A stretch of 64,000 nucleotides of DNA, from contig JAUIDY010000006.1 in assembly GCA_030428385.1 (NCBI GenBank), positions 1 to 64,000 on the forward strand. Direction: 5' to 3'. A program made the translations under genes and the position numbers. This DNA comes from Rhodothermia bacterium. GTDB lineage: Bacteria; Bacteroidota; Rhodothermia; Rhodothermales; JAAAOL01. Within the stretch, counting starts at the first letter, position 1, and each line of letters starts with the position of its first letter. Positions 17,568 through 29,383 of the stretch are shown here, one piece after another. The notes beneath the pieces are model-generated. The model worked only from the letters and a program-made list of their open reading frames with translations. It was not told the DNA's origin and searched no databases.

Positions 17568-18350
17568 CTATCGATACCGTTCCAGCGTGAACTTTTCGCC
17601 GAGGTAGCGTTTGCGCACAAAAGGATCGGCGGCCAGTTCTTCGGCAGTGCCATGCCGATAGATTTCGCCATCGATGAGCAGATAGGCCCGGTCTGTGATG
17701 GCGAGGGTCTCATGCACATTATGATCGGTAATGAGCACCCCCAGGCCACGGTCTTGCAAATCTGCCACGATGGCCTGGATGTCTTCGACGGCGATAGGAT
17801 CAACGCCAGCAAAAGGCTCATCGAGAAGGAAAAATTTGGGATCGGAGGCGAGCGCCCGGGCAATCTCCGTCCGCCGCCGTTCCCCTCCCGACAACATGTA
17901 CCCTTTCGAGCGACGCACTTTTTCCAGACCAAACTCTTCTATCAAGGCGTCCACTTTTCTCTGGCGTTCCGCTTTGCGGAGGGGTTGAAATTCGAGCACT
18001 GCGTGCAGGTTGTTCTCCACCGTCAGGTGCCGGAAAACCGATGCTTCCTGCGCCAGGTATCCAATCCCGCGTCGGGCACGGCGAAACATCGGCAGGTTGG
18101 TGATGTCTTCCGCTCCCATGTAAATGCGGCCGGTGTTGGGCCGCACCATGCCCACAATCATATAAAACGTCGTGGTTTTACCCGCTCCGTTGGGGCCCAG
18201 CAACCCTACTATTTCTCCCTGTCGCACTTCCAGGTTCACCCCCCGCACCACTTCTCGTTTTTTGTATCGCTTGCTCAGATCCTTGGCCTGTAAGGTGAGG
18301 ACCTCGTTGGCCTCCACAGTTCCAAGAGCTTCGGATGGAGGATCGGACAT
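17568..18350 (-). CDS. lptB: LPS export ABC transporter ATP-binding protein LptB
   Basis: 260 residues from ATG 18350 (M-S-D-P-P). The longer frame to 18419 adds an implausible leader. LptB is the cytoplasmic ATPase that drives LPS from the inner membrane through LptFG and LptC to the LptA bridge. Walker A is G-P-N-G-A-G-K-T-T, the signature is [15 protein letters not shown], and Walker B is [15 protein letters not shown], the LptB-specific form. The lptC and OstA-like partner genes are about 11 kb away at 27896-29982. It diverges from the sigma-factor gene across 133 bp. Confidence 0.95.
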
Positions 18351-18483
18351 CGCAAAAACAGGGATGGCGGAGGAGGAAGGAGGCCGGAACACAACCAAGG
18401 GCGCAACGGTCCCGGTCAAACGAAAGGGTTTAATTCCTTGATCCCTTGCTTATCTTCCGCCTTTATTTGGCGTTGGGCACTCA

Positions 18484-19314
18484 GTGCCTTCTCTTTTTTC
18501 CCCCACGTCCGTGCCCCCTACCCGACTTCCTCTCGACCCGTTGAGCGATGCGGCGCTGCTGGAGATGTTGCGTTCGGAAAATTCCGAGGCTCAAGAACAA
18601 GGGTGGAAGGCGTTTCTACACCAATTCTCGAACCTGTTTCTCAAAATAATCTGGCACTTCGAGGGTGACATCGATGCGGTGATGGAGAAGTATGTGTATG
18701 TCTGTGCTAAATTGGCCGAGAACAATTTTTCCCGGCTTCGAAAATTTCTTCCAGATGAACAACAGCGCCCCGTTAAACTATCGACCTGGCTGACGGTGGT
18801 GGTCAAAAATCTATGCCGGGAGCATCACCGGGTCCAGCATGGGAGGCGAAGGCACCCACGCGCCCTGAAGCAGGCCAGTCCGTTGCAGCGGGCTGTTTTT
18901 GAACTATACTACTGGAAGGGATTTACCCTTGACGAGATCGAGCAAGCCCTTGCCAATCACCCTGCTCGCTTAAACGGCTCCTCCATTGCAGAGACCTTGC
19001 GCGAGGTTGAAGACCTCTTCGCGTCGGCGATGCCTGCCAGACAGCCTCCACAAAAGCCCCAGTTTGTGCCATTTGACGACCAACAACACGCCCACCAGCG
19101 CGTTGAGCCAGCCAACATCGCGATGCAGGAAAAACTCTTGGGCAGCTTGGAGCCTCAAGAACGGCTGGTGGTACGCCTGCGCTATTGGGAAGACTTGAGC
19201 GCTCCGGCAATTGCTCAATTGCTCCAGTTGCCGTCCCCCCGCAAAGTGTATACGGTGATGCACCGGGCGCTCAAAAAAATTCGGGCCCAGGCACAAAAAG
19301 AGCGCGAATGGTAA
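18484..19314 (+). CDS. ECF-like RNA polymerase sigma factor with two region-4-like segments
   Basis: 276 residues from GTG 18484. Residues about 20-120 are a divergent sigma region 2 (W-K-A-F-L-x-x-F and the S-T-W-L-T-V-V-V-K-N-L-C-R-E-H-H-R segment typical of ECF region 2.4/linker). Two related helix-turn-helix segments follow: 132-178 (L-Q-R-A-V-F-E-L-Y-Y-W-K-G-F-T-L-D-E-I) and 222-270 (P-Q-E-R-L-V-V-R-L-R-Y-W-E-D-L-S-A-P-A-I). The second is the canonical region 4; the first looks like a duplicated or degenerate copy, which is unusual. It is followed after 51 bp by a zinc-finger anti-sigma gene. It likely controls its own operon, but no target promoter can be named. Confidence 0.8.
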   Translation: MPSLFSPTSVPPTRLPLDPLSDAALLEMLRSENSEAQEQGWKAFLHQFSNLFLKIIWHFEGDIDAVMEKYVYVCAKLAENNFSRLRKFLPDEQQRPVKLSTWLTVVVKNLCREHHRVQHGRRRHPRALKQASPLQRAVFELYYWKGFTLDEIEQALANHPARLNGSSIAETLREVEDLFASAMPARQPPQKPQFVPFDDQQHAHQRVEPANIAMQEKLLGSLEPQERLVVRLRYWEDLSAPAIAQLLQLPSPRKVYTVMHRALKKIRAQAQKEREW

Positions 19315-19365
19315 ATATGAGGCCCCTGTCCATAGGATATCAGTACAGAATTCCCCACCCGATGA

Positions 19366-20028
19366 ATGGAGCAGACCATGCATCTTGATGAGCTTCTTCT
19401 CGCTCGGTATCTCGACCAAGCCGTCAGCACCGAGGAGCGGCTACGCATTGAAGCCCACCTGGCAGACTGCGCCCGTTGTACCAAAGAGGTTGCAAGTACC
19501 GCTCAACTGCTCCAAGCGTTGGACGGCATGGACCTTCCGCCTGCGCTCCCCCCTACGATTCGGCAACGGACGGAGCAACTCCCGTTTCGGAAACCCGACC
19601 GTCCTCCAAGTGCTGGCGTCTCCCGAAGGTTTCGGACACTGGCAGCGACACTGGGTACCCTCCTCCTGTTTAGTGTGGGCATTTGGTTCTGGCAATCTGG
19701 TTCGTCTCCCACACCAGAACGATTTCGATCAACGGGTTCAGCGACAGTGCCCGCTCTGCTTTCTCCAGCAGACGATGCCGTACTGCTGGCATATCCAACA
19801 TTCTCTTGGAACACCCTCTCGTCTGCACAGAGCTATCGGCTTCGTCTTACGACGGCGGCGGGGCTGCCCATTTGGGAAGCCGCCTCGGAATCCAACACGA
19901 TTCCCCTTTCTCCCGACATTGCCCTTGAGCCGGGACAGGAATATCTTTGGCAGGTCGAAGCCCTTTCCGCTTCAGGAAGCGTTCAGACCTCTGCGCTTTA
20001 CGCTTTTACGTACGCGCCTTCTCCCTAG
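19366..20028 (+). CDS. Membrane-bound anti-sigma factor with zinc-finger (zf-HC2/ZAS) domain
   Basis: 220 residues. The N-terminal cytoplasmic part carries H6-x24-H31-x3-C35-x2-C38, the zinc-binding anti-sigma (ZAS) signature. One membrane segment lies at about residues 88-106 (a leucine/phenylalanine-rich stretch ending G-I-W-F-W). The C-terminal about 90 residues would be periplasmic and read like a single Ig/FnIII-type domain (P-T-F-S-W, Y-R-L-R-L, G-Q-E-Y-L-W-Q-V-E-A-L). In known systems such a protein holds its ECF sigma at the membrane until a periplasmic signal leads to proteolysis. The CHAT lipoprotein gene starts 19 bp after its stop. ATG 19378 is an alternative start. Confidence 0.85.
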   Translation: MEQTMHLDELLLARYLDQAVSTEERLRIEAHLADCARCTKEVASTAQLLQALDGMDLPPALPPTIRQRTEQLPFRKPDRPPSAGVSRRFRTLAATLGTLLLFSVGIWFWQSGSSPTPERFRSTGSATVPALLSPADDAVLLAYPTFSWNTLSSAQSYRLRLTTAAGLPIWEAASESNTIPLSPDIALEPGQEYLWQVEALSASGSVQTSALYAFTYAPSP

Positions 20029-20047
20029 CCCAAACGCCCGGCAATCG

Positions 20048-22870
20048 GTGAACTTCTTGTCGTCCCTCACAAGCTTGTTCACACTGGTTCTGAAAGTCGT
20101 TTTGGCTTCTTTCCTTTTTGGGTGCGGCCCTTCTGTTCAACGGCACCACATCCAAGCCCAACGCCTTTACGCGGAAGGAAGGTATCGGGAAGCAGCTACT
20201 GTCTTACGCCCCCTTTCTTCCAACCTGGCGCACCTGCCAGACAGCACGGCGTGGTTGCTGGCCGACGTCTGGTTCGCCCATGGCGAGGTAAAACGGGCCG
20301 CGCCCCTTCTTCGGCGGCTGGCTACTGCCGACACCGCCAACACGCTTCGTGCCCTTCGGCTTTTGGCCCATACGCATTACTTTTTGGGCAACCCGGACTC
20401 GGCCACGGCCTACGCGAATGAACTGTTTATTCGGGCCCAGCAACGCCACGACACCTTGCGGCTTTCTCAGGCCCATCACCTGCTGGGGCTGGTGGCTTTT
20501 TTTCAAGCCGCGTACGACGATGCCCAGACCCACCAACAGCAAAGTTTAACATGGGCGCGGGTCGCCAACGATCCGCTGGCCGAAGCCGACGCCCTGCGAC
20601 AAATCGGGGTCTTGCACTGGTACCGGGGTCAGTTGGACGAAGCCCTCACCGAAGGGTACCTGCCCGCCCTAGAACGGTATCGCGCGGCGCATCACCCCAT
20701 TGGCGAAGCCACCACCTTAAGCAATATCGGGTTGCTCCATGCCGCCCAAGGTGCGCCCGAGATCAACCTGCGCTATCAACTCGAAGCCTTCGACCTACGC
20801 GTCCAAATGGGCGACCAGATCGGTCTTAGCGACAGCTACCTGTTCCTTGGAAGCGACCCCTTTGTGCGTCACCCCGCTGCCCGGTTTGCCCAGCACTCGT
20901 TCAGCTTTATCCAAAAAAGCCTTACCCTAAGTACCCAGATCGGGTATGCATGGGGACGAGAGGTGGCGGCACGGGCATTGGGCGGCCTCATGGCCCACCA
21001 AACCGACTATGCCTCGCTGAGCACGTGGGCCTCCTGGGCTGATTCTGTCCACACCCTCTCGGGAGAAGGATACGCCCACCTACGCCTCCAGGCAGCCACC
21101 CGTGCCGTCTTTGAGCACCGCTGGCAAGATGCGCTGTCCCTGCTTCAAGAAGCCGAGGTTTGGATCGACTCGCTGCACATTCCTTCGATGAAATACCAGA
21201 CGCTTGCCTGGCAAATAGTCCCTCTCCGCAAGTTGGGACAGGACGTACACGCAAGGCGAGTATTGCACAAAGCGAGAGAACTTAATCCAACGGACCTGCG
21301 CTTGATGGGGGCCTTGGCGGAGTGGCACCTCGATCAGGGTCACCCTGATTCTGCCCGCGCCTTGCTTGAACCCCTTGTGGCCACCCAAGACTCCGTTTAC
21401 CTGCATCATCTACATCGTCCCTCCACTTCCTTTTCCTTTGAACGGGCGGCGGGGGCCGTTCATTTGCTGCGCAGCGACCTATACCACCCATTAATTCGTG
21501 CTGCAGCGCTGCAAAACGACCTAGAAGCGGTGTTTCGGTTTATTGAACAGGAGCGCGACTTGCCGTTTTGGGGAAACCCCGAGGCGGCTGAGTCCGACGA
21601 AGCCCACAAGGCCGTACGTACTTTTGCCGAGCGTTTACAATCTTATGAGGCTTCGCCCCCTGCTGAAAAAGACCTGGACGGGCTCCTCAACGCAATGGGA
21701 CAGATGCACAGAGCCCTGGTCCCTTCACCCCAGGCACTCCTGGCTCCGGCCCTTTCTTTCGAACGCCGTTCTATTTCAAACCTTCCCACCCTTCAAGCGG
21801 CCCTTGCCACCGATGAAGCCCTGATTGCATACGTGGTAGGGCGTTCGTCAGACGTCGTCTTCCCACATCACAACGAAGAAACGCTGCAGGTTCTGGTCGT
21901 GCGACCTGACACGGTGGTATTCCAAACACTTCCGCAGACTGCCACTGATGTTGAATCTGTTGTTTCCATTTTTCAACAAACCCTGGCTCGCGGTCGCGAC
22001 GACCCCATGGATCAGCGGTGGCGTAGCCCGGCGGCCACCTTGTACGCCACCCTGCTCCTTCCGCTGATGGAGCAGGGCCTTTTAGAGCCCCAGACTCGTT
22101 TAATATTTCTACCCCATCGGTTTTTGCATCAGGTGCCTTTTCATGCCCTGCCTACTACGCTCGATGGTCCCCCACGCTTTGTTATCCAAGACCATACCGT
22201 TTCCTACCTACCCGCAGCCACCGCCCTCGTCAGTGCTCGGCAACAACCGCCGGCGCCGTTCCACTCGGTTGGTGGTTTTGCACCCGACCAAGCGACGCTC
22301 CCTTATTCTAAGGAAGAGGTAGAGTCGATTCCAGGCACCCTTTTCCCCGACCGAACCCTTTTGCTTGGAGGGGATGCAACTGTTGATTCGTTTTTCGGGG
22401 CTTTGTCTCGCTTCACCGCCCTGCATATTGCGGCCCACGCGCGGACCCGCCCCGCCTTTCCCCTCCATTCAACCATCGAGTTTGCGCATCGTCCGCTTGC
22501 GTTGCATGAAGTCATGCATGCCACCGTTTCGGCCCGCCTCGTTGTCCTCAGCGCGTGTGATGGGGGCTATACACAAGGTGCATTCGATGACGAAATAACG
22601 AGCGAAAGTCTCGTAAGCTTTCCGCGTGCTTTTCTTGAGGCTGGCGCCAGATCCGTTCTAGCTTCCCACTGGCTCGTCGAAGATCAGGCAGCGGCCACAT
22701 TGATGCAGTCCTTCTACCATCGTTTGGCGACACCGTGTCCTTCCAGCGCTTTATGTGGTGTCGCTGAGTCCCTGGCCCACGCCCAACGTGACGCCCTCGC
22801 GGCACCAGAAGCCCAACGGCACCATCCTTACTACTGGGCGGGTTTCTATCTGATGGGCGACAGCCGATAG
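20048..22870 (+). CDS. TPR-CHAT domain lipoprotein (caspase-like protease family)
   Basis: 940 residues from GTG 20048. The same frame is open back to 19385, but that part lies in the anti-sigma gene, and the GTG places a clear lipoprotein signal at the N-terminus (hydrophobic core, then L-F-G-C, C26). Residues about 30-450 are helical repeats of TPR type. The C-terminal about 300 residues are a CHAT domain, a clan CD peptidase fold, with P-H-R-F-L-H-Q-V-P-F-H-A-L-P, the histidine in L-H-I-A-A-H-A (H797) and the cysteine in V-L-S-A-C-D-G-G (C837). The end H-P-Y-Y-W-A-G-F-Y-L-M-G-D is typical. The catalytic dyad is intact, so peptidase activity is plausible. The lipid anchor puts it in the periplasm or outer membrane, facing the anti-sigma periplasmic domain. 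Confidence 0.85.
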   Translation: MNFLSSLTSLFTLVLKVVLASFLFGCGPSVQRHHIQAQRLYAEGRYREAATVLRPLSSNLAHLPDSTAWLLADVWFAHGEVKRAAPLLRRLATADTANTLRALRLLAHTHYFLGNPDSATAYANELFIRAQQRHDTLRLSQAHHLLGLVAFFQAAYDDAQTHQQQSLTWARVANDPLAEADALRQIGVLHWYRGQLDEALTEGYLPALERYRAAHHPIGEATTLSNIGLLHAAQGAPEINLRYQLEAFDLRVQMGDQIGLSDSYLFLGSDPFVRHPAARFAQHSFSFIQKSLTLSTQIGYAWGREVAARALGGLMAHQTDYASLSTWASWADSVHTLSGEGYAHLRLQAATRAVFEHRWQDALSLLQEAEVWIDSLHIPSMKYQTLAWQIVPLRKLGQDVHARRVLHKARELNPTDLRLMGALAEWHLDQGHPDSARALLEPLVATQDSVYLHHLHRPSTSFSFERAAGAVHLLRSDLYHPLIRAAALQNDLEAVFRFIEQERDLPFWGNPEAAESDEAHKAVRTFAERLQSYEASPPAEKDLDGLLNAMGQMHRALVPSPQALLAPALSFERRSISNLPTLQAALATDEALIAYVVGRSSDVVFPHHNEETLQVLVVRPDTVVFQTLPQTATDVESVVSIFQQTLARGRDDPMDQRWRSPAATLYATLLLPLMEQGLLEPQTRLIFLPHRFLHQVPFHALPTTLDGPPRFVIQDHTVSYLPAATALVSARQQPPAPFHSVGGFAPDQATLPYSKEEVESIPGTLFPDRTLLLGGDATVDSFFGALSRFTALHIAAHARTRPAFPLHSTIEFAHRPLALHEVMHATVSARLVVLSACDGGYTQGAFDDEITSESLVSFPRAFLEAGARSVLASHWLVEDQAAATLMQSFYHRLATPCPSSALCGVAESLAHAQRDALAAPEAQRHHPYYWAGFYLMGDSR

Positions 22871-22959
22871 CCCGTTTATTTCTCTCGGCGTGGTAATTCC
22901 CTTCCGTTTGTCCATATGGTATCCATGTTCCTGAATTCCCTCTGTCCAGGCCATTCCAT

Positions 22960-25900
22960 ATGCCGTCCTCTTCTTCCTTCCGCACAGCCCTATTCTTGCT
23001 ACGGTCGCTGTTCCTTAGTGCTGTGCTCTTTAGTACCACTCTGCTTTTCGCTGCCCGTCTTTCGAACGCGCAGACGTTTGTACTGACCGATCTCACCACG
23101 ATCACCAACGGCTTCCTCCCCCTCAACCAGACGACGGCAGGAGGGCCTCCCGGGACTTTGTTGGACTGGGCCACCTCGGATGGCGGCGAAATCGTCAGCT
23201 TTACCCTTGGCTATGCCACTGACCTAACGACGGTTGACCTGTGTGTCATATTTTACACAAGCACCTCTGATGGAGGCAACGGCACCGAGATCGCACGCTA
23301 CGACTTTACGGGCCTCCCTGGTTCGGGGTCGGGCAACTTTGAAATCGTCACCCATACCGTCGACATTTCGGGGACCCCCTTTACCCTTCCCGCAGGCCCC
23401 TTTGGATATGCGTATGAAGTAAAAGACGATCGCACAGGCCCCCTCACTGTCAGTGCAGGAACAGGAACGACTGATTTCTATCGTGTCTTTCCAGCCCTGA
23501 CGAACCAGGTGATTGATGGTTTTTACGCCCAGCTGTACCTACGCCTGACGGCCCTGGTGCCGCCCCCGCCACCGTCGGGCTTGTGGTATGTTGATAATTC
23601 CGTGGCAGGCCCAGGCGATGGTTCTGAAGCTAACCCTTTTCCTACGCTGCTACAAGCAGAAACCGCTGCTGGTGAAGACGAAACCATCATCGTGCGAAAC
23701 GGAGCCGGTCCGTATGCGGAAGGATTCACCCTGAAGCGCGGACAAACGCTCATGGGCGGTCCCGATGATCCGCCCCAGGTACGCGGGATCATGCTTGGCA
23801 CCGACACCCACGTCATCGGCATTCATTCGATAGATAGTGACGGGCCAGGTATACAGGCCCAAGGTATTAATTTGGGCAACTCCACCATCGATGACACCGC
23901 TGTTTCCAACAGCAACGGCCAAGGGATCTGGCTGAACAACTCCACGGGCACCCTAACCATCTCAACTACGGACCTTTCCGGAACAGGCGGCGTGGGCATC
24001 ATGATGCAAGGTGGATCACCTTCGGTTTCCTTCAACGGCACCATCACTATGCCGCTGGAAGATGATGCTCCTCCGGCTGTACACCTTCAAAGTCCCTCCG
24101 ATTGCGACTTCCGCGTGGTCGAAGGAAGCACCATCTCAACCCGCGTGATGGTCTTCGACGATGTTTCGTTATGCAATGTGGAGTTCATTGGCAATACCAA
24201 TTTGGAAAGTGGCGGCATCGACATCCTGTCCTCCTCGGGTACCTTTACTTTCTCCAACACCACCATCACGAACCCGACGGGGTCGGCCATTAACATCGAA
24301 GGAGGCAGCGCAGACGTAACGTTTAATGGTAGTGCTGTCATCTCCAGTGATTCGCCCATCCCAGCCTTGGCGGTCCAAGACCATAGCGGGGGCACGTTTG
24401 TGTACGAAGGCACGCTGGAAGCCGATGGTCGTCCCGGCTTAGGATTCAACAATGCCGACGGGGTTTACAACTTTGATGGTGAAATCTCGCTAAACGGGGG
24501 CGAAAGGGGGATTGACATCATTGGCGACTCGCACGGTACCTTTACTTTTTCCAATACAACCATTACCGAACCTACAGGCCCCGCCATTCGGATCGAAGAT
24601 GGCGGTCCAGATGTGGACTTTACCGGCACCATTTTTCCTAAAAGCGACTCCACCGCCATCATCCTTCGCCGATTGAGAGAGGCTACTGTTAAAGCAAAGG
24701 GGGGACTCACTGACAGCACGGGAGGGTCGCTGATCGAGATTAGCGAGTCAGAAGGTACGTTCGACCTTGATATGCCCATCTTTTCAGGCGGCACCGGCAA
24801 TGATGGCCTCTTCCCCAGCATAGCGGTTCGCAAGAGTTCTGGCACCATTCGCTTTGGGTCGATTTGTATCACCAATACCGGCGCAAAAAGCGTGGCCGAG
24901 TTGAGCTTCGAGGAGGTGACCAACGCCTTTCTGGATATCAAAAACCTAAAACTCGATGACCTCCCGGATACCGCCATCGAACTCACCCAGGCACAGAACA
25001 CCAAAATCAACATCGACTCCCTACTCGCGCGGGGAGGCAAAACCGGCGTTCGGGTAGAAAAAGCCGACAGCGTGGATATCACACTGGGTCATGTAGAACT
25101 CACGGACGTAGACCAAAACTTTCATGTCAGCGACGTAGACAGGCTCAAATTCTTCGTCTCCTCCTATTCCGCTACTAACTCCGGCCCACCGATTGAGAAC
25201 GAATCCCTTGGATTTTTCGAGTTCGCCGTGGGTGAGGCAACATTTCAAAACGTACAGATCTCTTCCCCACCGGATCGTTCGGTATTTGATGTGCAGAACT
25301 CGGAAATGACGTTTACCCTTGATAATGCCATTTTTGACGGGGGGGACCATGCGATGCATGCGACGGGCTCCAGCCTGGAGATGCAGATGGACAACACAAC
25401 GATTCAGAATACCTCGGAGGCAGCGTTTCAGTATCAGCAGATGACGTATGTTTCACATGATATGAAAGGCTCTTCCATCCTAAATGTACCACAAGGAATC
25501 AGCATTACGGACACCGAGGAAGCATCCGTCACCCTGGAGTCCGTTGAAATTGAAAGCCCGCAGGCCCTCAGTGTGACGAATGTCGGCGTCTGGATCTCCG
25601 ACGTTTCGAACAGTTCGCTTCATCAAACCCTTGCTAACCCAATTCCGCCTGATTTCTTCGGTGTCACAGCCGGAAATATGGAGGAGGGGTTTCCGCCAAC
25701 CGACACACCAGTTTTCCGAATCAACAATACGGATATCCACGCGGATCCTGGGTCCCGCGCTCTCGAAATCACGCTCCTCAACCTCGAATCGGAAGCACCA
25801 TTACAGGTTGAATTGGATAATGTCAACGTGTTCGGGGGCAAGAATGCCATTCAGGTCCAAGGCAATGGGGTTGTGTTGTCCTTAACCGGGAGTACGTTCG

Positions 25901-27201
25901 AAGAAACCGAAGAGGATGCCATCGTCGTCACGGACATCGAGGAAGCCCGTTTGATATCAACCCTCCTGCAAAACATTGGCGGCAATGGCGTGACCATGAA
26001 GAACGTACGCGTGGTCACCATGGGAGAACTGCTGATGGAAAACATCGGAGGGAGCGGTTTTGTCCGCCTCCCCAACCGGCTCGTGGCTGCTCCCAAAACA
26101 CAAGCCCTCCAGACCCTTTCGCTCGATGGAAGTACCATCACTGGAACAGGTAGCACCGCGGTTGACATTGGTGTGGGCGAAGGCGAAGCATTGGCCTTGA
26201 GTGCCATCAACAACACCGTCTCCACGACCACCCCGTATGGATTCGCTATCGCTACGGAAGGGACAGGAACCGCCCTGGCAACGTTGACAGACAATACCGT
26301 ATCCGCCTCGACGGCGGCGTTCTTCCTTAGCCAAACAGGTAGGTCTGGGCTATCGCTCGTTGGCTTTGAGGGTGGTGATGCGGATGCCGTTGCCGCTTTC
26401 CTCCAGAGTATCAACGACGGTACACCAGGCGTAGAAGTCATCGGGACGGTCAGTGCAGGCCCGGCAGCCAATGCGGTGGACATGCGGTTGATTGATAAAG
26501 CTGTTTCTTCGGAGACACCGGCTGCAGGTGACGTGGTATCCTATACCCTGCGGATCACCAACGCCGGTCCCACCGATGCGACCCAGGTCATGGTCTCCGA
26601 CGTCTTGCCAACAGGACTAGCGTTTATACCCGGGTCGCTAACCGTAAATGGCACCACGATGACCGACGCTGGGGATGGCGACCTGGCAGATTTTGGAGAG
26701 ACACAAGCAGGGGCCGTAACCGTGCTGTCCCCGATGATGGCCGTAGATGACACCTTGGTGGTTACGTTTGATACGCAGGTGGATGAACAGGCCGCCGGTT
26801 CCTCCATCCAGAACCTAGCGCAGGTAGCTGCCGCCGAACCCGAAGCCTTTTCGAATAACAACACCGCCGAGGTGACTATCGATGTGATGCTGCCGACGGA
26901 TACCGAAGAGGCTATCCTTCCTTCCTCGCTCAGCCTTTCGCCCGGGTACCCCAACCCCTTCCATCAGCACACGACCCTCACGTTTACGTTGCCCCAAGCC
27001 AGTCACGTGCTGTTGGAAATATTTGATGTGTCTGGGCGTCGGGTTCGCAGCTTACAGCAGGAACGTCTCTCAGCAGGAATCCATCAGGTCAGGTGGGATG
27101 GACTGAACATGCAGCAACGCCCGGTTCCAAGCGGATTGTATCTGGTGCGGTTGCAAACCGAAGAGACGGCCTTACAATCCTCTGTCGTTCGCATCCGCTA
27201 G
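22960..27201 (+). CDS. Large secreted right-handed beta-helix protein with DUF11-like and C-terminal sorting domain
   Basis: 1413 residues. A signal peptide (basic start, leucine-rich core) ends near S-N-A-Q-T at about residue 38. After a jelly-roll-like region comes W-Y-V-D-N-S-V-A-G-P-G-D-G-S-E-A-N-P-F, the usual entry to pectin-lyase-like beta-helices (DUF1565 type). A long asparagine/threonine-rich helix region runs to about residue 1160. Residues about 1165-1305 are DUF11-like (Y-T-L-R-I-T-N-A-G-P-T-D-A, V-S-D-V-L-P-T-G-L). The last about 75 residues (Y-P-N-P-F, F-D-V-S-G-R-R-V-R, S-G-L-Y-L-V-R) match the type IX secretion/FlgD-like C-terminal sorting domain. It is probably a surface or secreted adhesin-like protein, 89 bp behind the CHAT gene and perhaps in the same operon. 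No catalytic activity is evident. Confidence 0.8.
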   Translation: MPSSSSFRTALFLLRSLFLSAVLFSTTLLFAARLSNAQTFVLTDLTTITNGFLPLNQTTAGGPPGTLLDWATSDGGEIVSFTLGYATDLTTVDLCVIFYTSTSDGGNGTEIARYDFTGLPGSGSGNFEIVTHTVDISGTPFTLPAGPFGYAYEVKDDRTGPLTVSAGTGTTDFYRVFPALTNQVIDGFYAQLYLRLTALVPPPPPSGLWYVDNSVAGPGDGSEANPFPTLLQAETAAGEDETIIVRNGAGPYAEGFTLKRGQTLMGGPDDPPQVRGIMLGTDTHVIGIHSIDSDGPGIQAQGINLGNSTIDDTAVSNSNGQGIWLNNSTGTLTISTTDLSGTGGVGIMMQGGSPSVSFNGTITMPLEDDAPPAVHLQSPSDCDFRVVEGSTISTRVMVFDDVSLCNVEFIGNTNLESGGIDILSSSGTFTFSNTTITNPTGSAINIEGGSADVTFNGSAVISSDSPIPALAVQDHSGGTFVYEGTLEADGRPGLGFNNADGVYNFDGEISLNGGERGIDIIGDSHGTFTFSNTTITEPTGPAIRIEDGGPDVDFTGTIFPKSDSTAIILRRLREATVKAKGGLTDSTGGSLIEISESEGTFDLDMPIFSGGTGNDGLFPSIAVRKSSGTIRFGSICITNTGAKSVAELSFEEVTNAFLDIKNLKLDDLPDTAIELTQAQNTKINIDSLLARGGKTGVRVEKADSVDITLGHVELTDVDQNFHVSDVDRLKFFVSSYSATNSGPPIENESLGFFEFAVGEATFQNVQISSPPDRSVFDVQNSEMTFTLDNAIFDGGDHAMHATGSSLEMQMDNTTIQNTSEAAFQYQQMTYVSHDMKGSSILNVPQGISITDTEEASVTLESVEIESPQALSVTNVGVWISDVSNSSLHQTLANPIPPDFFGVTAGNMEEGFPPTDTPVFRINNTDIHADPGSRALEITLLNLESEAPLQVELDNVNVFGGKNAIQVQGNGVVLSLTGSTFEETEEDAIVVTDIEEARLISTLLQNIGGNGVTMKNVRVVTMGELLMENIGGSGFVRLPNRLVAAPKTQALQTLSLDGSTITGTGSTAVDIGVGEGEALALSAINNTVSTTTPYGFAIATEGTGTALATLTDNTVSASTAAFFLSQTGRSGLSLVGFEGGDADAVAAFLQSINDGTPGVEVIGTVSAGPAANAVDMRLIDKAVSSETPAAGDVVSYTLRITNAGPTDATQVMVSDVLPTGLAFIPGSLTVNGTTMTDAGDGDLADFGETQAGAVTVLSPMMAVDDTLVVTFDTQVDEQAAGSSIQNLAQVAAAEPEAFSNNNTAEVTIDVMLPTDTEEAILPSSLSLSPGYPNPFHQHTTLTFTLPQASHVLLEIFDVSGRRVRSLQQERLSAGIHQVRWDGLNMQQRPVPSGLYLVRLQTEETALQSSVVRIR
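23947..24840 (+). repeat. Internal repeats of about 97-102 codons in the beta-helix gene
   Basis: A unit beginning G-T-[FL]-T-[FI]-S-x-T-x-[IL] recurs at 23947, 24238 and 24535, with a fourth, degraded start (G-T-I-R-F) at 24841. Periods are 291, 297 and 306 bp, always a multiple of three. The copies at 24238 and 24535 are still similar at DNA level over about 70 bp (both begin GGTACCTTTACTTT). This indicates in-frame tandem duplication of a multi-turn helix block, followed by divergence. Confidence 0.7.
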
Positions 27202-27209
27202 CAAGGCCC

Positions 27210-27740
27210 TTACGCGAGGGCAGGCAGGTACCGAGCCACGGCCATCCCCACGACGGCTAAAAACAGAAGCAGAGCAGCTACCCGTCCGGCCAAGCGAAGG
27301 CGGGCTTGCAGGTGCTGCATCCGGTCTACCTGTTCCGCGCTGGGTGGGCCCTCACTGGCATGCATTGCCTGCCCCAACTGGTCCATTTCGATGGCGGTAG
27401 GCCGGTTGATCGTGATTCCCATGACCATAGCAACCAGCGCCAGCAACCCTCCAATCGATAGAGAAAGCCCCATCCCCGACAACAGCCATGTCCCCTGAAA
27501 GCCGTTGGACAAGATCCAGAGTATCCAGATGCCCGAGACGACAGTAAGAATCGCTGCCACCGTGATAAATTGAGAGAGTCGAGAGCGGCCCATCAGGTGC
27601 TGCATAAACGGAGCGCCCTTTGCTCCCACGGCGCGCATAGTGGGTTCCAGGAACCCGGCGATCATAAAGACCGCCCCGGCCCAAAAGATACCTGCAACGA
27701 TGTGAACGGTGCGGAGCACAAGCATTAAAGAAATGGACAT
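27210..27740 (-). CDS. Small integral membrane protein, DUF2269-like
   Basis: 176 residues from ATG 27740 (M-S-I-S-L-M-L-V-L-R-T-V-H-I-V-A-G). The frame continues upstream to 28019, but that leader is not protein-like. Four hydrophobic segments are visible at about residues 5-28, 55-75, 83-105 and 152-172. The opening R-x-x-H-I-[VL]-A-[GA]-x-F-W-x-G-[AG] is common to DUF2269/CopD-like membrane families, where the histidine may bind haem or copper. The gene is convergent with the beta-helix gene (8 bp gap) and 155 bp downstream of the OstA-like gene. The function is unknown. Confidence 0.65.
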   Translation of the reverse strand: MSISLMLVLRTVHIVAGIFWAGAVFMIAGFLEPTMRAVGAKGAPFMQHLMGRSRLSQFITVAAILTVVSGIWILWILSNGFQGTWLLSGMGLSLSIGGLLALVAMVMGITINRPTAIEMDQLGQAMHASEGPPSAEQVDRMQHLQARLRLAGRVAALLLFLAVVGMAVARYLPALA

Positions 27741-27895
27741 GGCCGTGAATCTGAAGATTGGAGTATGCCGAACGTTGCCCTCGCTCCCTTCCAAGGTACA
27801 CGATGTTCCAGTTTGAGTAAATCCCCGTCCCTGTTCCCGAATTGTTGCTAGTACCGCCTGCGCCTGCGCGATCTCGACATTCACTTTTGAGAGAT

Positions 27896-29383
27896 TTACT
27901 CTTGGGAGGTGGGTACCTGTGCGCTTGTATGCTGATTTTCCTTGTATTCCGTCATTCGATGTTGAAAGATTGGATGTGTCAACAGGTCTTCTTTCGCCGG
28001 TCGTTCCTCCGGCTTCCACCGCATACCTTCAAGCTGAAATGATGCTGGTAGTTGTGTTTCATCGTAGTAGGTCCCTTGTGGATCTCCTGTTACCTCCATA
28101 CGCTGGGGCGCATCGTTTTTAACCACAAACAACAGTGCATCGCCAGAAAGCCGAACCCCACCATCCGGCTGATCGGCCTCATCCTTGAGGTAATAAATCG
28201 CTTCAGCAGTTGGCCCCACACGAAATGTCTGCACGGAATCGCCCTCAAATAATCCATGCAAGGTTTGGCCTTTGAGTTGTTGCAGGCGACTGGTTAATGT
28301 ATCACGCTGTACCACAAAAGCCCTGGCCTTGACGAAAACGGAGTCTAACGATTCATTTCTTGCCCATACCCGAATCGAATCGCCAGAGAGTTGCGCCTCT
28401 TCGAGCCACGCAACCGGCTCCTGAAAAAGAGACAAAATGTCCCGCGCGTCGGTGCTGTCTGTGGAAGGGACATGATGATAGATCACCGAATCAGCAACGG
28501 CTGCATACGCGCTTTTCCAGATCTGCACCGCTCCCACGGCCTGAAGCTGCTGCAACGAGTCGGTATCCGACGCCCAAAGCCGGTGCGCCTGTACCACAAG
28601 CGTGTCAGCCCAGGCCCCGGTGCTGTCTGCTTGCACCTGAAGAAGCAACGCCTGCCCTTCCACCCGACTCCGATTCGTTTCCTCCTCATTGTAGGCATAG
28701 TCTCCAAAGAGCAAAGTCCGTGACGGGGGATCAGCAAGATTGTCCCGGTTCTGCTGATCCATATACACCCGCCCGAATGCTTCCGAAATGCGGGTCGCTC
28801 GGTAATAATTAACGGTATCCGCCTCAAGAACTGTACGCTCTTGAAAGAGTGACACGTCCCCCACAAACAACGCCCGTTCTTCTTCTGTCCAGTAGGTGCC
28901 TACTTCGCTTGTCAGCGTGCTGGTGCTGTCAAGCAGCGTAACGCCCTGCATAAACTGGCTGCGTTTTTCGTCTACGTAATAGATACCGGACGGAGCCATC
29001 ACCAGCACCTCGCCATCAAAAAGCTCCACGCGCCCTCCGGCCCGGCCCACTTTACTCACCCGGTTGTAGTGCACCGTGTCAGCCCGTAGGGTATCGCCTT
29101 GATCAATGATGGATACATTTCCGAAAAAGGAAATATCATCGCGGTCGAGATACTGAAGCACGCGGTGTGCTTGCAAAAACGTACTGTCTTGGCGGAGCCT
29201 CACGTTGCCCTCCAGTCGCCGTACCCGTTCCCCTTGCATCATGCCACCCACCAGCGAATCGGCATGGAGAATATGCACCTCTCGTACGGCGGGACGTGAT
29301 GGGGCTTCCTGGGCCTGGGCCACGTGCAGCATGGCCAGCATCATCACAATCCCCCCCAGCAAACACTGCCGTCCGTGATTCAC
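27896..29383 (-). CDS. OstA-like (LptA-type) LPS transport protein
   Basis: 495 residues from GTG 29383. The start overlaps the lptC stop as GTGA, and a GGAGG lies 5 nt upstream, a rare Shine-Dalgarno match in this window. A signal peptide ends near A-Q-A-Q-E at about residue 25. The body is made of repeating beta-strand turns of OstA type (G-N-V-R-L, F-F-G-N-V-S-I, A-D-T-V-x-Y-x-R), as in Bacteroidota OstA-like proteins. These are longer than the about 180-residue E. coli LptA and are thought to form the periplasmic bridge that carries LPS to LptD. It is translationally coupled to lptC and complements lptB at 17568. Confidence 0.85.
   Translation of the reverse strand: MNHGRQCLLGGIVMMLAMLHVAQAQEAPSRPAVREVHILHADSLVGGMMQGERVRRLEGNVRLRQDSTFLQAHRVLQYLDRDDISFFGNVSIIDQGDTLRADTVHYNRVSKVGRAGGRVELFDGEVLVMAPSGIYYVDEKRSQFMQGVTLLDSTSTLTSEVGTYWTEEERALFVGDVSLFQERTVLEADTVNYYRATRISEAFGRVYMDQQNRDNLADPPSRTLLFGDYAYNEEETNRSRVEGQALLLQVQADSTGAWADTLVVQAHRLWASDTDSLQQLQAVGAVQIWKSAYAAVADSVIYHHVPSTDSTDARDILSLFQEPVAWLEEAQLSGDSIRVWARNESLDSVFVKARAFVVQRDTLTSRLQQLKGQTLHGLFEGDSVQTFRVGPTAEAIYYLKDEADQPDGGVRLSGDALLFVVKNDAPQRMEVTGDPQGTYYDETQLPASFQLEGMRWKPEERPAKEDLLTHPIFQHRMTEYKENQHTSAQVPTSQE

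Follow-up and report, generated by a model that had tools for sequence, protein, structure and literature searches.

A cluster of four genes in the window analysed here, a 64,000-nucleotide stretch of contig JAUIDY010000006.1 from a Rhodothermia bacterium, is reasonably likely to encode an envelope-signalling module. In this module, an exported TPR-CHAT protein would act as the site-1 protease for an ECF-like sigma factor, with the cut placed after Arg117 of the membrane anti-sigma factor. In the resting state, the anti-sigma ZAS domain would keep the sigma factor at the membrane, and a folded FN3 domain would cap the periplasmic end of the anti-sigma factor. A signal would reach the TPR part of the CHAT protein, whose His797/Cys837 dyad would then cut the linker after Arg117, directly before the FN3 domain. 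The uncapped stub would be cut within the membrane by an RseP-type M50 protease, and the sigma factor would be freed. The adjoining secreted T9SS protein is likely either an output of the module or its signal source. M50 proteases were present in all five genomes examined.

The four ORFs lie on the + strand at 18484-19314, 19366-20028, 20048-22870 and 22960-27201, flanked on one side by lptB (17568-18419), which is divergent, and on the other by a gene for a membrane protein in convergent orientation (27210-28019). An earlier note on this DNA had described four same-strand genes for a sigma factor, an anti-sigma factor, a CHAT protein and a large surface-type protein; ORFs and Pfam matches agree with this order and confirm it, and the ZAS motif, lipobox and H797/C837 are in the sequence as the note gave them. 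According to homologues, the anti-sigma gene starts at the ATG at 19378 rather than at 19366; consequently, of the gaps of 51, 19 and 89 bp reported earlier, the first is corrected to 63 bp. The sigma gene may start with GTG at 18511 instead of at 18484. No terminator-like site was found in the three intergenic gaps, and the regional count of such sites equals that in shuffled DNA.

The product of the first gene (18484-19314) is a sigma factor of the sigma-70 family that contains two region-4-like HTHs (approximately 18892-18954 and 19132-19281). The protein matches Pfam sigma-70 r4_2 in two stretches (4e-14) and TIGR02937 above its cut-off (4.5e-15). Compared to the ECF pattern, its Pfam region 2 is weak, below cut-off, and the second region-4-like HTH is present. 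Homologues in the related loci are 38-46% identical. Within the Rhodothermia order, related double-HTH sigma factors were also observed near a CPBP membrane protease (L056-L060), several of them with DUF2007, cdsA and mutL nearby. These neighbourhoods contain no anti-sigma factor or CHAT and were rejected as part of the system.

The second gene (19378-20028) encodes a membrane anti-sigma factor comprising a ZAS zinc finger, a transmembrane helix, a short linker and a periplasmic FN3/Ig domain. It matches Pfam zf-HC2 (5e-8), with an additional weak Ig match, and its AlphaFold2 model has a mean pLDDT of 87. The residues of the ZAS motif H27-x3-C31-x2-C34 (19456-19479) are invariant in the anti-sigma alignment; with this Hx3Cx2C pattern, one transmembrane helix and an adjoining sigma gene, the protein belongs to the ZAS membrane anti-sigma factors. 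The transmembrane helix spans residues 83-108 in the model (19624-19701), and high-confidence strands together with FN3 matches in the PDB delimit the periplasmic domain at residues 127-212 (19756-20013). The periplasmic Ig-like tail of the earlier note is retained as a domain, and its fold type is FN3. The linker carries the motif R115-F116-R117-S118 (19720-19731), in which R117 marks the candidate cut. This arginine falls inside the sole disordered stretch of the model (residues 111-119, pLDDT <50), outside the modelled domain.

The third gene (20048-22870, GTG start) encodes an exported TPR-CHAT putative protease with lipobox Cys26 (LFGC26) at 20123-20125. Its assignment to the CHAT family (PF12770) follows from a profile match of 7e-49, with 167 bits against a curated cut-off of 24, and from the His-Cys dyad; the TPRs also match. 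The predicted catalytic residues are His797 (22436-22438), which is H in all CHATs aligning there, and Cys837 (22556-22558), which is C in 71 of 71 aligned CHATs. The dyad is intact in every sigma-linked CHAT aligned over it, with one exception: the CHAT at L067:1945-4503 (G493) has lost the catalytic Cys through a deletion and a frameshift beside an intact sigma/anti-sigma pair, which may represent decay or an assembly error. CHAT homologues carry N-terminal export signals, several having a transmembrane helix or signal peptide instead of a lipobox. The lipid anchoring proposed earlier is thus borne out by the lipobox in the window but is not a general trait; export is conserved while anchors differ, and lipoprotein anchoring was rejected as a defining CHAT feature. 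Separately, CHAT-like lipoproteins without the His-Cys dyad were noted near an S41 protease and tmk in L078 (G493 C59) and L080 (G526 C81).

The product of the fourth gene (22960-27201) is large and secreted, has beta-helix and DUF11 parts, and carries a T9SS type A sorting tail at approximately 26947-27174. Matches were obtained to Beta_helix (6e-19), DUF11 (1e-16), FlgD_ig and Por_Secre_tail, and the TIGR04183 match (8.5e-9, 35 bits versus a cut-off of 23) places the protein among T9SS type A cargo. A large secreted repeat protein is the next gene 3' of the CHAT gene in the window, in a second locus of the same genome (C212), in G001 and in L038, and less tightly in L066 and L067; the G001 protein is of the SdrD_B/GEVED/T9SS kind. 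No sequence is common to all these secreted partners. As a member of the cluster, the fourth gene varies and can be missing, and it may be an output, a signal source or a mere neighbour. The suggestion that the beta-helix protein is a member of the regulon is not supported as worded in the earlier note; the partner varies and is sometimes absent.

The same four-gene order, which the note had proposed to seek in other genomes, recurs. The genome of the window (G000) has three CHAT genes, and its C212 locus repeats all four genes of the window in unchanged order; the CHAT protein and sigma factor there are 41-42%, and the anti-sigma factor 28%, identical to their window counterparts. The order was found again in G001 C358, from another genus of the same family, a locus that was also returned from the MAG Bacteroidetes bacterium GSL.Bin22. 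Because of its presence at both loci, the order is more than chance. Among 114 genomes of the order Rhodothermales, no other one had a full-length CHAT relative at the threshold used. Beyond the order, searches with the sigma factor and full-length CHAT yielded a few Ignavibacteria-type loci, placed as such by kinship assignment and two Ignavibacteriales records, with variants of the arrangement. All four parts are present in L038 and L066 and the first three in L055, whereas L065 has the sigma and anti-sigma genes without a CHAT gene, and in two more loci a truncated sigma gene alone remains. L039 begins within the anti-sigma gene, and no secreted protein adjoins its CHAT. In L055 and L066, the window-type sigma/anti-sigma pair stands beside a CHAT of another type, with R-S kept. 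The pair is kept in G472, where a CHAT was not found in a genome that is 81% complete.

To place this linkage in the phylum, 40 CHAT loci were sampled. Approximately 34 of them lack an adjoining sigma/anti-sigma pair, and most CHATs of the phylum are exported with no sigma factor nearby, so CHAT proteins also do other jobs. Among the exceptions, three CHAT genes converge on the gene of a ZAS-TM-Ig anti-sigma factor, whose longer linker likewise closes with FRS or LRS ahead of the Ig domain. A profile built from the convergent-type anti-sigma factors was run on 381 genomes, and 41 Ig-type anti-sigma factors were tabulated in all. A CHAT was present in the fetched stretch for 31 of these 41 (8 of 9 of the window type and 23 of 32 of the convergent type), compared to none of 20 ZAS anti-sigma factors without Ig, which match in the zinc-finger/TM part only (Fisher's test, p = 5e-9; the value is indicative only, given that CHAT-linked members had supplied the profile and the convergent loci share ancestry). 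Most linked Ig-type anti-sigma factors show this second arrangement, with the CHAT gene convergent with the anti-sigma gene, and since most of these loci are related by descent, the counts overstate independence. Weak anti-sigma matches were rejected as a control: the ones examined came either from Ig domains of otherwise unrelated proteins or from a ZAS protein lacking Ig.

L065 is one of the ten Ig-type anti-sigma factors without a CHAT in the fetched stretch; the other nine are of the convergent type. Two of these loci, L229 and L188, lie near contig ends. The arginine is kept in nine of the ten, so R-S can occur with no CHAT beside it. CHAT genes occur somewhere in eight of nine of their genomes checked, a weak point because half of the phylum's genomes have CHAT genes. 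Unlinked CHAT genes in relatives, which the note had regarded as evidence against the association, were mostly not what was observed, linkage being kept in the related loci and for 31 of the 41 anti-sigma factors.

Several related arrangements were seen alongside. In L134 (G172) and L137 (G176), which are also exceptions among the 40 sampled loci, a sigma factor, a ZAS anti-sigma factor with a TPR tail, a CHAT with a C-terminal TM and a T9SS protein are encoded on one strand, in the order seen in the window. In L081 (G342 C16), another sigma/ZAS anti-sigma pair is divergent from a CHAT gene and has R-S in its linker EQIGRSVSV. The sigma-like proteins 5' of some convergent-type anti-sigma genes (L193:4371-5150, L186:2200-2958, L198:6154-6954 and L128:6116-6934) show a weak match to region 2 only (1.7e-6 to 0.16), with no recognisable region 4, and are possibly a divergent sigma type.

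In the nine window-type anti-sigma factors, R117 is invariant and followed by S or A, with entropies near 2 at most nearby linker positions. Across all 41 Ig-type anti-sigma factors, arginine occupies P1 just before the Ig domain in 40 (entropy 0.17), and P1' is S in 36, A in 3, N in 1 and G in 1 (entropy 0.70). The entropies of P6-P2 and P2'-P5' are 2.2-3.6, and 35 proteins have F, V, L or Y at P2. The motif was set by eye in L028, L038, L196, L200, L201, L222 and L224, where the script took another arginine or none. Among the 41, L230 alone lacks the arginine, and no CHAT gene lies in its vicinity either. A separase-like ExxR motif with an acidic P4 is present in the Rhodothermia copies and L038 but fails in the wider set; therefore, only R-S with a mostly hydrophobic P2 was retained. 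Judged by sequence conservation, R-S between the membrane and the Ig domain is probably the CHAT cut site, and the conserved arginine fits a separase-like cut after this residue, although it could alternatively be a structural or docking residue.

Asp879 of the W-x-V-x-D motif (22682-22684) is invariant in this family of CHATs, and its position matches separase Asp1082 of the P1-Arg pocket. In the model, it lies directly before helix 880-894 and after strand 869-873; in a separase modelling study, Asp1082, close to where the equivalent helix starts, was set against P1-Arg (PMC4626109). Nearly all CHATs, unlinked ones included, have this residue. As a general property of CHAT domains, it supports an arginine preference in general and not a pairing with the anti-sigma factor, and it was rejected as evidence specific to the pair.

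A CHAT fold search returned separases, Csx29 and DdvA. Separases, which combine a helical-repeat arm with a caspase-like domain, gave the best fold matches to the CHAT model, yet with low scores (TM 0.3-0.4) that limit the resemblance to domain type. Separase sites have Arg at P1 and an acidic residue at P4 (PMC4626109), but the enzyme is eukaryotic and cuts cohesin. Myxococcus xanthus DdvA (PDB 8rot, 8rw5) is a transmembrane anti-sigma factor whose chain includes a TPR-CHAT-like part by fold and profile, with the CHAT His, Cys and Asp kept in the alignment. Its partner DdvS is an ECF sigma factor, and the signal for DdvA was given as unknown in 2015 (PMC4374960). Whereas the CHAT is part of the deposited DdvA anti-sigma chain, the window has separate genes, an FN3 cap and an R-S linker, and the loci read encode the two proteins in two ORFs. 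In Craspase, the TPR-CHAT protein Csx29 cuts the sigma inhibitor Csx30 and frees CASP-sigma (PMC10028731), and its CHAT is the closest solved CHAT by sequence. However, Craspase is RNA-guided and has no membrane anti-sigma factor. Unlike the window CHAT, Craspase CHATs align without an acidic residue at position 879, and the cut in Csx30 falls between residues 427 and 429, not after Arg judging by the cited residues (PMC10028731). The window protein scores 52 bits with the Csx29 model against a cut-off of 300, and no gRAMP/Cas7-11 or Csx30 gene is found among the adjacent window genes, which sets it apart from type III-E systems.

The DegS/RseP/RseA and RsiW-type systems of intramembrane proteolysis resemble the proposed module in having a periplasmic-capped membrane anti-sigma factor, site-1 and then site-2 cleavage, and M50 genes. 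The site-1 enzyme DegS is a PDZ serine protease, whereas the candidate in the window is a clan CD cysteine protease. In the type III CRISPR system CalpL/CalpT/CalpS, a SAVED-Lon protease cuts an anti-sigma factor and frees the sigma factor (PMC11229360); it differs in its Lon-type protease and cyclic-nucleotide signal. DdvA already unites CHAT and anti-sigma function in a single chain, and in Craspase a sigma inhibitor is the substrate of a TPR-CHAT protein. The earlier interpretation, that the CHAT protein cleaves the periplasmic part of the anti-sigma factor, is partly supported: the proposed cleavage would be like these systems in kind and gains a candidate R-S site. In the open-access literature searched, only the Craspase paper brought together a CHAT domain, an anti-sigma factor and a sigma factor, and the split, exported form with an R-S linker had no record; an earlier description may exist.

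The secreted neighbour allows for the CHAT protein being an output, a reading that we consider rather unlikely. The sigma factor would induce the exported protease and a T9SS partner that the CHAT matures or degrades, and another protease would cut the anti-sigma factor. The large secreted protein next 3' in the window, C212, G001 and L038, and more loosely in L066 and L067, is consistent with this, as are the same order with a T9SS protein in L134 and L137 despite an unrelated anti-sigma tail and the many exported CHATs with no sigma nearby. However, such a role leaves the conserved R-S of the linker unexplained, along with linkage where no secreted protein adjoins (L039 and the second-arrangement loci), and the lack of a common sequence among the partners also argues against it.

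It is improbable, in our estimate, that the CHAT binds instead of cutting, docking on the FN3 domain and the linker arginine and thereby shielding the anti-sigma factor from another site-1 protease or exposing it. Retention of R-S in anti-sigma factors without a neighbouring CHAT, the G493 CHAT lacking its catalytic Cys beside an intact anti-sigma factor, and the single-chain DdvA would suit docking; against this, the dyad is intact in all other linked CHATs aligned there, and the G493 change is possibly decay or an assembly error. That the genes are neighbours without a joint function, with the arginine belonging to the FN3 domain, seems very improbable. The approximately 34 of 40 other CHAT loci without the pair point that way, but the genes stay linked at protein identities of 28-46% and in both of two orientations, and the arginine sits in a low-confidence stretch (pLDDT <50) outside the modelled FN3 domain.

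Although CHAT proteases are common, to our knowledge few of those not tied to CRISPR or defence have a known substrate. The conserved partner, with its conserved candidate cut site, offers a direct test of the CHAT role and P1 preference, and a caspase-like enzyme would join the few protease types known to start envelope sigma-factor release. More tentatively, and with somewhat more doubt than confidence, we suggest that in Bacteroidota, above all in Ignavibacteria-type genomes, widespread non-CRISPR exported CHAT site-1 proteases may activate sigma factors by a cut after arginine in the R-S linkers of Ig-capped anti-sigma factors, with several gene arrangements. DdvA, as a fusion, and Craspase, with its CRISPR link, would then be relatives of this signalling use.
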